Made by a program: the position numbers and the translations under genes
Assembly: GCA_903835685.1 (NCBI GenBank)
Contig: CAILNX010000026.1
Coordinates: 124,001 to 188,000, forward strand
Length of the DNA stretch: 64,000 nt
From: an uncultured delta proteobacterium
GTDB taxonomy: Bacteria; Desulfobacterota; Desulfovibrionia; Desulfovibrionales; Desulfovibrionaceae
Direction of reading: 5' to 3'
Part shown: positions 5,167-46,024 of the stretch, one piece after another
How the letters are laid out: every line of letters starts with the position of its first letter
Numbering within the stretch: position 1 is the stretch's first letter
Notes under the pieces: generated by a model
What the model saw: the letters and a program-made list of their open reading frames with translations, nothing else
Told to the model about the DNA's origin: nothing
The model's database searches: none

Positions 5167-6852
5167 ATGCCCCCGATTATCGCCCTGGTGGGACGGCCCA
5201 ATGTGGGCAAGTCCACCCTGTTCAACCGCCTTCTGAGAAAAGCCGTGGCCATTATCCACGACCAGCCCGGCGTGACCCGGGACCGCATCCTGTCCGAGGC
5301 CCACTGGCACGACCGGGACTTCCTGCTGGTGGACACCGGCGGTCTGACCCTGGAGAAAGGCGAGGCAGGCCAGTCCGTGGCCTTTCAGGACGAAATATTC
5401 GACCAGGTGAACGAGGCCGTGGCCTCGGCCCAGGTGGTGGTGTTCATGGTGGACGGCCGCGAAGGCCTCACCCCCCTGGACCAGGAAGTGGGCGCCTATC
5501 TCCGCCCCCTGGGCAAGAACGTGCTCCTGGTGGTGAACAAGGTGGACGGCGTCGAGCGGGAGCCCTTTGTCACCGCCGAATTCCATAGTCTGGGCCTGCC
5601 CCTTCTGGCCATCTCCTCGGCCCACGGTTTCCACATGGAGGAGTTCAAGGAGCGGCTGGCCGAGATGACCGCTGACTTTCCCGAGCCTGAGGAGCGGCCG
5701 GAAAAGGAAGTGGGCCTGCGCATCGCGGTCCTGGGGCGGCCCAATGCCGGGAAATCCAGCATCATCAACGCCATGGTGGGCGAGCAGCGGCTCATCGTCA
5801 GCGCGGTGCCCGGGACCACCCGGGACGCGGTGGACGTGACCTTTACGGCCGGGGACAAGCACTACACCTTTGTGGACACGGCCGGGGTGCGCCGCCGCAC
5901 GCACATCACCGACACGGTGGAGAAGTTCAGCGTGCTGCGCTCGCTCAGCTCCAGCCGCAAGGCCCAGGTCTCCCTCCTGGTCCTGGACGGCGTGGATGGT
6001 CTGGCCCGCCAGGACAAGCGCCTGCTGGAATTCTTGGAGAACGAGAAGGTCCCCTTTGCCGTGGTGGTGAACAAGATGGACCTGGTGGCCCCGGCCCAGG
6101 TCAAGGCCCTGAAGGAAGACTACAAGGAGACCCTGCGCTTCAGTCCGCACGTGCCGGTCCTGTACACCTCGGCCCTGGACCGCACGGGGCTTAAATCCAT
6201 CCTGCCCCTGGCCGAGGCCATGTGGAAGGAGACCAACGAGCGCATCCCCACGGCCAAGCTGAACAAGGCCATGGCCGAGGTCCTGGAGCGCCACGAGCCG
6301 CCCCTGGTCAAGGGCCGCCGGGCCAAATTCTACTACATGACCCAGGCCTCGGTGGCCCCCCAGACCTTTGTGCTCTTTGTCAACGACCCGGATCGGGTCA
6401 AGCCGAGCTACGCCAAATATCTGGAGAACGGGCTGCGCAAAATGTTCGGCATCCGCTACACGCCCATCAGCGTGGTGTTCCGGCCCAGCCACGCCCCGCG
6501 CGAGGAAGGGGAGCAGCCCGCCCGTCCCCGGCCCAGCAGGCCCAGGCCTGCGGACAAGGGATCGGCCCGGGGCAAGCCCGGCAAGGACGGCGAAAAACGT
6601 TCTCCGGCCCGGAAGTCTTCGGGCGGACAGGGGTCTTCTTCCGGAGGCAAGGGTGGCCAGGGCGCTCCTTCGGGCGGCAAGGGCGGCTCGGGCGCGCCCT
6701 CTGGTGGCCGGAGCGGACGCGGCGGAACGTCCCGTGGTGGTTCCGGCCGGGACGGCAGCGGGGGCTCGGCCAATGGACGCGGCTCCCAGGGACGGGGCCA
6801 GGGGGGCCAGGGCCGTTCGGGCCGTCCCCGTTCAGGTCGGGGCAAGGGCTAA
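5167..6852 (+). CDS. der: Ribosome-assembly GTPase Der with long low-complexity tail
   Basis: Der (EngA) is a two-GTPase-domain protein needed for 50S subunit assembly. Seen are G1 motifs GRPNVGKS and GRPNAGKS, G3 motifs DTGG and DTAG, G4 motifs NKVD and NKMD, then the KH-like domain ending near residue 437. The remaining 120 or so residues are a Gly/Ser/Arg/Lys tail with repeats such as SSGGKGGQGAPSGGKGG, unlike the short basic tail usual in the family. Start follows GAGGAG. The tail is in frame and keeps the GC-rich codon use of the gene, so it is probably real. Confidence 0.95.
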   Translation: MPPIIALVGRPNVGKSTLFNRLLRKAVAIIHDQPGVTRDRILSEAHWHDRDFLLVDTGGLTLEKGEAGQSVAFQDEIFDQVNEAVASAQVVVFMVDGREGLTPLDQEVGAYLRPLGKNVLLVVNKVDGVEREPFVTAEFHSLGLPLLAISSAHGFHMEEFKERLAEMTADFPEPEERPEKEVGLRIAVLGRPNAGKSSIINAMVGEQRLIVSAVPGTTRDAVDVTFTAGDKHYTFVDTAGVRRRTHITDTVEKFSVLRSLSSSRKAQVSLLVLDGVDGLARQDKRLLEFLENEKVPFAVVVNKMDLVAPAQVKALKEDYKETLRFSPHVPVLYTSALDRTGLKSILPLAEAMWKETNERIPTAKLNKAMAEVLERHEPPLVKGRRAKFYYMTQASVAPQTFVLFVNDPDRVKPSYAKYLENGLRKMFGIRYTPISVVFRPSHAPREEGEQPARPRPSRPRPADKGSARGKPGKDGEKRSPARKSSGGQGSSSGGKGGQGAPSGGKGGSGAPSGGRSGRGGTSRGGSGRDGSGGSANGRGSQGRGQGGQGRSGRPRSGRGKG

Positions 6853-6944: not shown

Positions 6945-7041
<97 letters not shown>

Positions 7042-28605: not shown

Positions 28606-31086
28606 ATGTTCGGATGGCATAAGGAGTTGTTCAGCAAGATCGGTTTTTTCGCCGATTGGGGCATCCGGAAAAAGCTGCTGGTCACGCTCATCCCGGTGGT
28701 CATTTTCATGCTCGTGGTCACGGGCTACGCCACGCATCACTTCTCTTCGGGGTACTTGATCCAGGCCCTGGAGCGGACCTCGCGCATCTACACCATGGCC
28801 CAGGCCCACAACGTGGAGGTGTTCCTCCAGCAGGCCGTGGATGACCTGCGCTTGTTGGCCAAGACGGCCGAGGACAAGGACGATCTGGTCCGGTTTCTGG
28901 TCGGCAACCGCGAATTGCATGGGGAAGCGTACCGGGAGTTGGCCCTGGTCGCTGCGGCTGGGATCGAGCCTGTGCTCCTCCTAAACACAGGTCAGGAAGT
29001 GGTGGATATCCCGGCGGCCAAGACCAAGCAGATCAAGAACAGTCCCCTGGACCTGCCACCCCGCATGCGCGATCTCAAGCCGGGCGTCGTGTTCTTGGGC
29101 GGTCTCCTGGAGGCGGTCTATCCCCTGTCCCTGCTTCCTCCCAGCGCTACGAGCTCGTCCGTGGCCGTATTCCGGCTGATCACCCCCTTGGTGGCCAAGG
29201 ATGGCACCCAGCGCGGCTTTCTCATCCTGTCCCTCGACGCCCGGGAAATCCGCAACATCCTGTCCATCTTCAATTCACCGAAATCGCCTCTGTACGCCTT
29301 TCCCCGCACCTCGGAGAAGCGGTACAGCTTCTTTTTCGACGAGCAGGGCTGGATCCTCTTCCAGTCCGAGAACCCCGAGGACGTCTCCCGGGAATTGTCC
29401 GTGGAATCCGCTCGGGCCGGGATGAACGGGGCCCTCGGCAAACCCGGATACGACCCGGCCTTCCGGCCCTCGCCCAAGCATGAGCTCTACTGGAAGATGG
29501 TGGTGGACACCCAGGCCGGAATCAGCGGCCTGGAGACGGTCACGGCCCAATACGAGCCCAACGGAGGGGAATTGCCGTATTTCCTGGGCTATTGTCCGGT
29601 GCGCTTCAGCGCAGAGGCGGACAAGGAGCCCGAGGTCATCGGCGGCGTGGCCTACATGGACCGCACCCGTTTGAGCGCCGCGGCGGAGTTCCGCCAACTG
29701 GACGTCATGTTCGTGATCACCATCTGCGCCATCATCGTCATATCCTGCGTCATTTTCATCCTGGGCCAGGTCATCACCAACCCCATCCACAGGCTGGTGG
29801 GCGAGGTGCAGCGAATCATGGGCGAGGACGTGCCCCAGGAGATCGACCTGCCTGACGCGGATTTCGAGACCACCCTGCTCAAGCGCTCCATCAATTCCAT
29901 GATTGACTCCCTCCTTCACAAGGACCGGGAATTGCTCCTGAAAAACGAGGATCTCCTGCGCAACCGGCTGCGGGAAAAGGTGGATCTGGAGGGCATGGTG
30001 GCCGGGATGGCGTACCAGTCCGGAGCCAACCGGCTGCCTGAAATCGTCGGGGCCAGTCCGGTGATGGTCGAGCTCAAGCACCGCATCCTGAAAGCCGCCT
30101 CCACGGACGCGGACGTGCTCATCAAGGGCGAAACCGGCACGGGCAAGGAGCTGACGGCCGAAGCCATCCACCAGGCCAGCAGCCGGGCCGGGAAGCCCTT
30201 CATCACCATCAACTGCGGGGCCCTGGACGAAAACCTGCTCCTGGACGAGCTCTTCGGGCATGTGAAGGGGGCCTTTTCCGAGGCCAAGTCTGAACGCAAG
30301 GGGGCTTTTTTGGCCGCCAATGGCGGGACCCTCCTGCTGGACGAGATCGGCAACGCATCCAGCAAGGTCCAGCAGGCCCTGCTGCGCACCCTGTCCGTGC
30401 GCCGGATTACCCCCCTGGGCAGCGATCAGGACGTAAACATCGACGTCCGGGTGCTGGCCGCCACCAATGTGAACCTCCAGGACAGCGTGCAGCGCGGGGA
30501 ATTCCGAGAGGATCTCTACTACCGCTTGAAGGTCATCACCATCGTCACCCCTCCCTTGCGTGAGCGCAAGGGGGACATTCCCCTTTTGACCGCCCATTTC
30601 CTCAAGCAAAATGCCGGGATGCGCGCTGGAATGGAGATGGCCTTGAGCCGGGGGGCCTTGGCCCAACTGCACGCCTACGACTGGCCCGGCAATGTCCGGG
30701 AACTCAAGCATACCCTGACCCGGGCCGTGGCCATGGCCGAGCACGACGCGCTCTATGCCGAGGACCTGTTCTTTGACGGCAGCAACGCCGCAGCCCGACT
30801 TCCCCACTCGGTTCCTTCCTATCCCCTCCCCAAGGCCAGACCCCGCCCGGGGGAGGATTCCGCCTTGCCTCCGGTCGAGGTCGGGGTGTATGGACTCAAT
30901 GCGCGTCAGCAAAAGGCCGTGGAATATCTTCGTTTTCATGGTTCGATCACCCGCAAGCAGTATCAAGGCCTGCTCGGTGAAGGCACGCCGCCGCGTACGG
31001 CCCAGCATGACCTGAAGGATTTAACCGTCCGGGGCCTCTTGCAAAAGAACGGGAGCGGCCCGGCCACGAAGTATATTTTGGCGTGA
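28606..31086 (+). CDS. Membrane-bound sigma-54-type AAA+ transcription activator with sensor domain
   Basis: An 826-residue protein: TM helix about 21-45, an extracytoplasmic Cache-like sensor to about 365, TM helix about 366-390 (ITICAIIVISCVIFILG), HAMP, a short coiled linker, a sigma-54 AAA+ domain (Walker A GETGTGKE near residue 508, Walker B LLLDEIGN near 577, REDLYYRL) and a C-terminal winged-helix-like region. The sigma-54 contact loop reads GAFSEA (555-560) instead of GAFTGA. The usual Fis-type HTH is absent; the end (LNARQQKAVEYLRFHG...TRKQYQGLL) looks like a winged helix. Direct membrane sensing with transcription output is inferred. Divergent from uspA. Confidence 0.85.
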   Translation: MFGWHKELFSKIGFFADWGIRKKLLVTLIPVVIFMLVVTGYATHHFSSGYLIQALERTSRIYTMAQAHNVEVFLQQAVDDLRLLAKTAEDKDDLVRFLVGNRELHGEAYRELALVAAAGIEPVLLLNTGQEVVDIPAAKTKQIKNSPLDLPPRMRDLKPGVVFLGGLLEAVYPLSLLPPSATSSSVAVFRLITPLVAKDGTQRGFLILSLDAREIRNILSIFNSPKSPLYAFPRTSEKRYSFFFDEQGWILFQSENPEDVSRELSVESARAGMNGALGKPGYDPAFRPSPKHELYWKMVVDTQAGISGLETVTAQYEPNGGELPYFLGYCPVRFSAEADKEPEVIGGVAYMDRTRLSAAAEFRQLDVMFVITICAIIVISCVIFILGQVITNPIHRLVGEVQRIMGEDVPQEIDLPDADFETTLLKRSINSMIDSLLHKDRELLLKNEDLLRNRLREKVDLEGMVAGMAYQSGANRLPEIVGASPVMVELKHRILKAASTDADVLIKGETGTGKELTAEAIHQASSRAGKPFITINCGALDENLLLDELFGHVKGAFSEAKSERKGAFLAANGGTLLLDEIGNASSKVQQALLRTLSVRRITPLGSDQDVNIDVRVLAATNVNLQDSVQRGEFREDLYYRLKVITIVTPPLRERKGDIPLLTAHFLKQNAGMRAGMEMALSRGALAQLHAYDWPGNVRELKHTLTRAVAMAEHDALYAEDLFFDGSNAAARLPHSVPSYPLPKARPRPGEDSALPPVEVGVYGLNARQQKAVEYLRFHGSITRKQYQGLLGEGTPPRTAQHDLKDLTVRGLLQKNGSGPATKYILA

Positions 31087-44396: not shown

Positions 44397-45284
44397 CTAC
44401 GAAGCCCGGGCCAGGGTCACTTCCTTGAGCGGGGTGGCCGGGGGCGGGATTTGGCCCAGTTCGGTCTCCATGAGCGGGTCCTGGCGTTGCTTCAGGTAGC
44501 GGCGGGACAGGGCGCGCAGGGCGTCGGCCTTGCCGTTCCGGTCCCCCAGGCTCAGGAAGGAGACCAGTTTCTTTTCCAGCTTGTAGGGGTTCTGCTCCTT
44601 GCGGATGGCGATGACCCCCTCCATGATGATCTTGTGGTTCAGCAGCTCGGCCCGGGTCCGGAAATGCACGCATTCGGCCAGGGGGGAGAAGAGCAGGTTG
44701 CTCAGCACGATGCCGTACAGGGTGGAGACAAAGGCCACCGGGATGTGCTTCAAGATGACCCCGGTGTCGCCCACGCCCGTGAGCAGCCCGGCCAGGCCGA
44801 TGACGCTGCCGGCCACGCCCAGGGCCGGGGCGATGCGGGCCATGGTCAGGAAGATGCGCTCCATCTGGCTGCGGCGCAGGCTGAAAAAGGTCATTTCCGA
44901 GGTCAGGATGTCCCGGATCTCCCGCTCCTTGTAGTTGTCCACCAGGAACATGAGGGCATTGCGCAAAAAGGGATTGCCGCTGCTTTCCCCCACCTTCTCC
45001 AGGCACAGGACCCCGTTGATCCGGGACTGCACGGCCATGTCCAGCAGAGCGTGCACCAGGTCGGCCGGGGTTTCCAGCTCGTTCATGTAGGCGTTTCTGA
45101 CCACGCTGAACGCGTTTTTGATCCGCTCCAGGGGGTAGCTTAAGAGCAGGGCGGCGGCCACGCCGGAACTGACGATGGCAAAGGCCACCAGGTTCCAGAT
45201 CACGGACACGCCCCCGGCCAGGGCGAAGCCCCCGGCGAAAATGGCCAGGCAGATTGCCGCGGCGGCGATGTTCTTGCGGTACAT
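44397..45284 (-). CDS. motA: MotA/TolQ/ExbB-type proton-channel subunit
   Basis: A 295-residue membrane protein. Two N-terminal TM helices precede a cytoplasmic loop; the C-terminal pair (LGVAGSVIGLAGLL; STLYGIVLSNLLFSPL) carry the Pro and Thr/Ser pattern of MotA. The cytoplasmic loop has charged residues (RRSQMERIFL). It powers flagellar rotation with MotB, encoded directly upstream. A non-flagellar MotA/TolQ role is possible, since order is motB-motA and no flagellar gene adjoins. Confidence 0.78.
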   Translation of the reverse strand: MYRKNIAAAAICLAIFAGGFALAGGVSVIWNLVAFAIVSSGVAAALLLSYPLERIKNAFSVVRNAYMNELETPADLVHALLDMAVQSRINGVLCLEKVGESSGNPFLRNALMFLVDNYKEREIRDILTSEMTFFSLRRSQMERIFLTMARIAPALGVAGSVIGLAGLLTGVGDTGVILKHIPVAFVSTLYGIVLSNLLFSPLAECVHFRTRAELLNHKIIMEGVIAIRKEQNPYKLEKKLVSFLSLGDRNGKADALRALSRRYLKQRQDPLMETELGQIPPPATPLKEVTLARAS

Positions 45285-45295
45285 GGTCGGCCTCC

Positions 45296-46024
45296 TTAAG
45301 GGGTCGGCAGGGCGTCGCTCAAAATGACGATCTCGACCCGCCGGTTCTTGTGTTGTTCCTGTTCGGACAAGGGCGCGGCCTCGGGGCGGGATGCGCCCAG
45401 GCCCGTGGCCATGAAGCGGCGGGGCGCAAGCCCCGTGCGGATGAAGAATTCAGCCACCGTGGCCGCTCGCTGGGTGGAGAGGCGCAGGTCGTCCCCGGCC
45501 TTGGTCTCGCTCTCCTCGGCATGGCCCACGATGTGCACGGTGTTCTGGCTCAGGCGGATGACCTCGGCCACTTCCTTGAGAAAATTTAAGGATTCCGGAG
45601 ACAGGTCCGAATGGCCTTTGGCAAAGGCTATGTCCCCGCGCAGGACCACCCGCACGCCCCCGTCCGCCTCCATGATCACCGAAACCCCCTTGGGGTCGGA
45701 TTTGTAGATGATCTCCCGGGTGCGCTCGTAGGTCCGCAGATTGGCCCCCGGGGTCAGCCCGCGTCCGGCGAAAATCTGGAGGAAGTCCTCGATGGAGCCC
45801 ATGACCCCTTCCCGGGGCGCGGTCTCGGCCCTGGTCCCGGAAGCGAAGATGGGGGCCGTGTCCTTGCGGTTGTTGGCGTAGATGAACAGGGCCACGAACA
45901 GGACGAACATGATCATCATGAGGTCCGCCCAGGGCAGAACCCAGGAGGTCATGGGGTTCTTGTCCAGCAGGGACTCGTCATGGTCGAACAGGACCATATC
46001 CTGGGTTCGGTGCGTATGGGGCAT
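45296..46024 (-). CDS. motB: MotB-type stator protein with OmpA domain
   Basis: A 242-residue protein with one TM helix (WADLMMIMFVLFVALFIY) carrying the proton-binding Asp of MotB (WADL), then a periplasmic linker and OmpA-like peptidoglycan-binding domain (VHIVGHAEESETKAGDDLRLSTQRA; GLGASRP). It anchors the stator to the cell wall. It is the first gene, with motA 11 bases downstream, the reverse of the classical order. Confidence 0.82.
   Translation of the reverse strand: MPHTHRTQDMVLFDHDESLLDKNPMTSWVLPWADLMMIMFVLFVALFIYANNRKDTAPIFASGTRAETAPREGVMGSIEDFLQIFAGRGLTPGANLRTYERTREIIYKSDPKGVSVIMEADGGVRVVLRGDIAFAKGHSDLSPESLNFLKEVAEVIRLSQNTVHIVGHAEESETKAGDDLRLSTQRAATVAEFFIRTGLAPRRFMATGLGASRPEAAPLSEQEQHKNRRVEIVILSDALPTP

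Follow-up and report, generated by a model that had tools for sequence, protein, structure and literature searches.

The der gene and its C-terminal tail

The der gene occupies positions 5167-6852 on the forward strand of the window, the 64,000-nucleotide stretch of a Desulfovibrionaceae genome analysed here, and encodes a protein of 561 amino acids terminated by a TAA stop codon (6850-6852). The Der/EngA core (residues 1-441; 5167-6489, forward strand) consists of GTPase domain 1, GTPase domain 2 and a KH-like domain, as defined by TIGR03594, PF01926, PF14714 and Foldseek. In the profile search TIGR03594 covered residues 3-439 with 494 bits against a cut-off of 306.7, PF01926 was found in two stretches representing two tandem GTPase domains of the EngA type, and the C-terminal KH-like domain PF14714 was located at residues 359-439 (E 2e-31). 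The same arrangement over residues 3-439 characterises the GTPase Der/EngA, which is called YphC in B. subtilis. The top Foldseek matches are Der structures, including 9bsl, 9bs0 and 3j8g on ribosomal particles, and the best of them, 9bsl_W, is YphC with RbgA in a 45S particle. Going by the titles of the structures 3j8g, 9bsl and 9bs0, binding to 50S precursors is known for Der homologues. A search of the organism's own genome with Der returned one full-length match and five partial ones with 30-38% identity. A tRNA-Ser gene with the anticodon GCT (6945-7039) is located downstream of der.

The window's Der is a complete protein with two GTPase domains and a KH domain, followed by an in-frame tail. 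The tail comprises 120 residues (442-561; 6490-6849, forward strand) of low complexity, is rich in Gly, Ser, Arg and Lys, and carries a net charge of +19, in agreement with the first-pass annotation, which had described about 120 low-complexity residues after the KH-like domain. B. subtilis YphC (436 aa, matched up to residue 433) ends with the KH domain, and the window's Der is 120 residues longer. The annotation had added that usual Der proteins lack such a tail; E. coli Der (490 aa) also has a basic end, of 30 residues with a net charge of +10 as against 120 residues in the window's protein.

It is highly improbable that a frameshift, a lost stop codon or an assembly error has fused non-coding DNA to a short Der. 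The source is a single draft genome of 65 contigs, and from core to tail GC3 drops from 0.90 to 0.74 while GC2 climbs from 0.39 to 0.81, which would fit such a fusion; the rise in GC2, however, follows from the Gly, Arg and Ser codons of the tail, which demand high GC2. A frameshift at the start of the tail, whose correction was expected by the annotation to yield a normal short end if the tail were spurious, would lengthen Der rather than shorten it, because the two remaining forward frames run on without a stop to 6880 and 6902. Since neither of these frames offers a short end, a frameshift or a lost stop was rejected. In addition, 120 codons without a hydrophobic residue are unlike random GC-rich DNA, comparable tails of relatives have dN/dS ratios well below 1, and two copies of a repeat inside the tail differ mostly at synonymous sites.

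The tail is composed of 40 Gly, 19 Ser, 18 Arg, 11 Pro, 8 Lys, 8 Ala and 6 Gln residues, the remainder being 4 Glu, 3 Asp, 1 His, 1 Thr and 1 Asn. The positive charge is distributed over the whole length, with +6 in the first 41 residues and +13 in the last 79. None of the 120 residues is I, L, V, M, F, W, Y or C, while about 28 such residues would be expected in 120 amino acids encoded by strand-symmetric random DNA of 67% GC. Relative to the same GC-matched expectation Gly (40 vs 13.8), Ser (19 vs 10.2) and Lys (8 vs 1.7) are in excess, whereas Arg is as frequent as expected (18 vs 17.2). The net charge lies mildly above the GC-matched value of +12 (z 1.4), and a Markov null built on the tail's own bases gives a mean of 18.1 against the observed 19; the other two forward frames of the same DNA encode net charges of +17 and +21. 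Because base composition alone predicts +12 or +18, depending on the null, the charge of the window's tail by itself proves no selection, and this argument was dropped.

A 30-bp tandem repeat with 2.5 copies and 77% match (6621-6695, forward strand) encodes decapeptides of the SGGKGG(Q/S)GAP type. The repeated units named by the annotation are indeed present, SGGKGG twice and SGGRSGRGG once, and SGG is mildly enriched (5 vs 2.09 in shuffled tails, p 0.03). The two best 10-codon copies (6640-6669 and 6670-6699) are distinguished by five synonymous third-position differences and one Q/S codon, a pattern that, on very few sites, is consistent with maintenance of the encoded peptide once the copies had arisen.

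According to the AlphaFold2 model, pLDDT is 81-92 at residues 351-440, falls below 50 at 448-561 and ranges from 32 to 45 at 451-561. The model as a whole, calculated from an alignment of 14 sequences from which L019 was omitted since its best match began at residue 162, has a mean pLDDT of 70.4 and a pTM of 0.48, and some switch loops of Der are also low (42-52). The tail is thus very probably intrinsically disordered: predicted disorder over residues 448-561 coincides with a net charge of +19 and zero hydrophobic residues, as anticipated by the annotation's description of a positively charged disordered region.

The same annotation had compared the tail to RGG-type RNA-binding tails. The comparison holds for composition and not for motif. 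The tail resembles eukaryotic RGG/GAR boxes in its Gly and Arg richness and low complexity, but differs from them in the lack of RGG and RG enrichment, the absence of aromatic residues, the many Ser and the presence of some Lys. In 10,000 shuffles of the tail the mean number of RGG was 1.98 against 2 observed, and that of RG was 6.01 against 6. One di-RGG was found against a mean of 0.14, a count reached in 13% of the shuffles, and two di-RG against 1.33. Interspersed aromatic residues are typical of RGG/GAR boxes, and none of the 120 residues is F, Y or W. Membership in the RGG-box class was rejected on these two grounds.

Long Der tails among relatives

The occurrence of the extension was surveyed within the phylum of the window's genome. 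The family sample comprised 99 Desulfovibrionaceae genomes drawn evenly from 44 genera, including the window's own. The Der end could be measured in 94 of them, which belong to 41 genera (no usable end was present in G022, G023, G034, G061 and G063), and tail length was taken as the number of residues beyond the point that matches residue 441 of the window's Der in the alignment, with an uncertainty of a few residues. The tail has at most 20 residues in 71 of the 94 proteins, 21-44 in three and at least 45 in 20, with four reaching at least 100; tails of at least 45 residues, referred to below as long, are found in 9 of the 41 genera. Of the 94 tails, 77 have a positive net charge, among them all 20 long ones. 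The view that usual Der proteins lack a tail therefore stands for the 71 short-ended members of the family, but not for the 20, the window's included, with 45-131 residues. In four Der proteins from other families of the order the chain ends 2-6 residues after the KH domain.

In the phylum-wide search, 141 of 148 genomes contained a match, and 135 of the 141 lie outside the family. Der ends were measured in 55 of these, a non-random set consisting of the 30 best-scoring matches and all 25 further ones whose open frame reaches 480 aa or more; in the remaining 80 the frames are shorter than 480 aa and the matched core takes up about 430 codons, which limits their tails to little more than 45 residues. 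One of the 55 proteins has a long tail, that of G427 (L174), and the other 54 have at most 30 residues. The Der tail of G427, which belongs to another order, is Arg/Gly/Pro-rich and has 120 residues with a net charge of +30. The comparison among relatives that the annotation had suggested shows the extension to be unusual, as was supposed, but neither unique nor confined to the window's species. In the literature search, which left most subscription papers outside its coverage, none of the listed titles or abstract openings concerned long Der tails.

Altogether, 33 distinct long tails with closed frames were compared, which are related in groups and do not constitute independent trials. The protein of G269 (L182) runs off its contig; it was excluded from the counts of 94 and 33 tails and included among the 32 long tails used for the larger of the two trees described below and for comparison of residue shares. 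The long-tailed Der proteins of genera g5, g10, g14, g21, g29, g33, g39 and g44 and of G427 carry the extension at the same place as the window's protein, and it is likewise basic and poor in hydrophobic residues, although the wording differs. All 33 long tails have a positive net charge, which in every case exceeds the GC-matched expectation (in 22 of them by more than 2 sd), and each of the 33 contains fewer hydrophobic residues than expected. In the Markov test, which is partly circular because the null is built from each tail's own bases, 15 of 16 long tails had a net charge that 5% or more of their nulls attained. An excess of Lys, with the observed number attained by no more than 5% of the nulls, was seen in 14 of the 16. 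Loci of 31-44% GC (L217, L007, L221 and L103) likewise encode long cationic tails, and tail length does not correlate with locus GC (rho 0.10, p 0.32, 107 rows, kinship ignored). Both facts disfavour GC drift as the sole cause.

The Gly share of the window's tail (0.33) is the highest among the 32 long tails, the next being 0.20. Other tails are built of Lys/Pro/Ser/Gly repeats such as KPGSKPKSGPK in G020, of Lys/Gly/Ala/Pro as in KGKGEAPKG of G043, or read GGQKSGGSKTGG in G251 and G252. The three Der tails of genus g39 (L103, L217 and L221; loci of 31-44% GC) have 73-95 residues and an end resembling TLKAALRNPNSPQSRSLKKALKK. The tails of genera g5, g14 and g33 differ from the others in sharing a motif, RGI(S/T)..G..GPG(R/H), a short way behind the KH domain. 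This motif, a candidate for a specific binding element, is carried by L033, L045, L113, L185, L186, L025, L027, L029, L007 and L040.

In a tree of 163 Der cores, from which the tails were omitted, the distribution of long tails needs seven changes, six of them forced by well-supported branches. In a second tree of 51 rows, from which g39 was filtered out, six changes are needed and three are forced; each tree came from a quick search and has many weakly supported branches. A single clade of all long tails was rejected by the AU test on the 51-row tree (p-AU 2.6e-46). One early gain followed by many losses may also account for the distribution; the trees do not separate gains from losses. Turnover is visible even within genus g10, where the tails have 8, 8, 64, 114, 114, 122 and 137 residues; the loci L056, L108, L031, L109 and L035 carry long tails (64-137) and L070 and L107 the short ones (8).

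Selection on the tails was estimated in 13 pairs from genera g5, g10, g14 and g29 by the Nei-Gojobori method on gapless columns of low-complexity alignments, with pairs sharing members and dS above 1 in 4 of the 13 tails. The dN/dS ratio was 0.05-0.36 for tails and 0.03-0.18 for cores in all 13 pairs. Since these tail values are well below 1, it is very likely that the tails of the four genera are translated and under constraint. This constraint is generally looser than that on the core, as the ratio was higher in the tail than in the core in 10 of 13 pairs. The window's genus is represented in the sample by one genome, and the estimates thus speak for the tails of relatives and not for the window's own.

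These data bear on the alternative that the tail is a nearly neutral, tolerated extension without a specific role. The end of Der would have been extended by repeat slippage, and with its C-terminus directed into free space the protein would accept any soluble disordered tail. This reading is unlikely, though by no means far-fetched. It would account for the 30-bp tandem repeat inside the tail, for the range from 8 to 137 residues within g10, for the charge of the window's tail lying within chance for its composition, and for the looser constraint on tail than on core. It is harder to reconcile with dN/dS below 0.4 for the tail in 13 of 13 pairs, with the cationic and hydrophobic-poor character of 33 of 33 long tails, retained even at low GC, and with a tail length that does not follow GC.

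A possible role in assembly of the 50S subunit

Der is an essential assembly factor acting at the catalytic centre of the ribosome. The tail is a genuine in-frame extension of Der. We propose, as an evenly balanced call, that it works as a sequence-unspecific electrostatic tether to rRNA. When the KH domain docks on the 50S precursor opposite the peptidyl-transferase centre, the flexible tail could touch nearby unfolded 23S rRNA. Such a contact may raise the affinity or the on-rate of Der and help rRNA helices to settle. Wording and length of the tail would turn over fast, the latter partly by repeat expansion, because selection would keep only a loose property, namely that the tail be basic, disordered and soluble. 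That the window's own tail is translated, contacts rRNA and affects assembly is what we infer. The proposal is supported by the in-frame reading, the predicted disorder, the recurrence of long tails with several gains or losses, dN/dS below 1 in relatives and the consistent charge. Against it stand the 71 of 94 family members with no more than 20 residues after the KH domain, and the chance-level charge of the window's tail and its lack of RGG enrichment; the span of 8-137 residues within g10 argues against a tether that is strictly needed.

In a study of M. smegmatis EngA, 50S binding is mapped to the C-terminal domains, which favours the proposal, and the authors argue for ribosome binding without direct binding of rRNA by the KH domain, which speaks against it (PMC3323550). 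Binding of YphC and RbgA is reported to help rRNA helices at the functional site to mature, and GTP hydrolysis is not needed for this (PMC12560758). The N-terminal domain of ObgE is described as close to the incompletely seen C-terminal region of Der (PMC13278734). Salmonella Der is predicted to be RNA-binding by TriPepSVM in a single mention that says nothing on a tail (PMC6511874).

In short, a known protein carries a basic, disordered extension that varies and recurs among relatives, probably an accessory with a loose grip on RNA rather than a new system. Tentatively, and with more doubt than for the tether itself, we suggest that long cationic disordered Der tails arose repeatedly in one family as a tunable aid that acts at the peptidyl-transferase centre and helps rRNA to fold while the 50S subunit is assembled. 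A tail acting on rRNA would give an essential and otherwise conserved GTPase a fast-evolving disordered module, which could set the efficiency of assembly or cooperate or compete with ObgE; an inert tail would be a clear example of an essential enzyme tolerating disorder. The species of g10 with and without a tail represent a natural experiment on its role.

A regulatory function is improbable. The tail would then be a built-in counterpart of regulators of the disordered, Lys-rich type exemplified by YihI, tuning the GTPase or binding polyphosphate under stress. According to one report, YihI is an activator of E. coli Der with disordered ends, binds polyphosphate via its Lys-rich N-terminus, and binds and activates Der more strongly when residues 1-45 are removed (PMC12345225). 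The window's genome has no match to YihI (PF04220), which fits this reading, but the family exceeded the cut-off in just 1 of 14 control genomes and its absence therefore carries little weight. The same report states that polyphosphate binding by YihI needs lysines, replacement of K by R abolishing the shift (PMC12345225), whereas Arg outnumbers Lys by 18 to 8 in the window's tail.

Basic tails on other RNA-acting proteins of the genome

An HMMER search of the genome with the tail returned Der itself and one weak match (E 2.7) containing a stop, which, given the handling of biased composition, is weak evidence of absence. Basic tails are known in bacterial DEAD-box helicases. Like that of the window's Der, these are low-complexity R-rich extensions following a folded core that acts on RNA; the window's tail sits instead on a GTPase of 50S assembly, and its wording is unrelated. 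No such tails were present in the four pseudouridine synthase matches of the genome. Among 12 Helicase_C matches, two have R-rich tails and nine lack them, while one (L200) is truncated at the end of its locus. Long basic ends on RNA proteins of this genome are thus not limited to Der, since the two DEAD-box helicases L192 and L193 are also R-rich-tailed.

The shared feature of Der and these helicases, together with the low complexity and the R- and G-richness of the Der tail, would suit an RGG-type condensate former that drives Der and rRNA into RNA-rich droplets. This is quite improbable, as the RGG and RG counts equal the shuffled expectation, Phe, Tyr and Trp are absent, and RGG is missing from 28 of the 33 long tails, with a maximum of two in the window's own.

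Both helicases contain PF00270 and PF00271. The product of L192 (G000:C2, around 30184-30504) carries a long Arg/Ser/Pro-rich low-complexity tail, and that of L193 (G000:C37, around 45139-45459) an Arg/Ser/Pro-rich tail ending with KKKRRRRRKGGPKPTEGQ.
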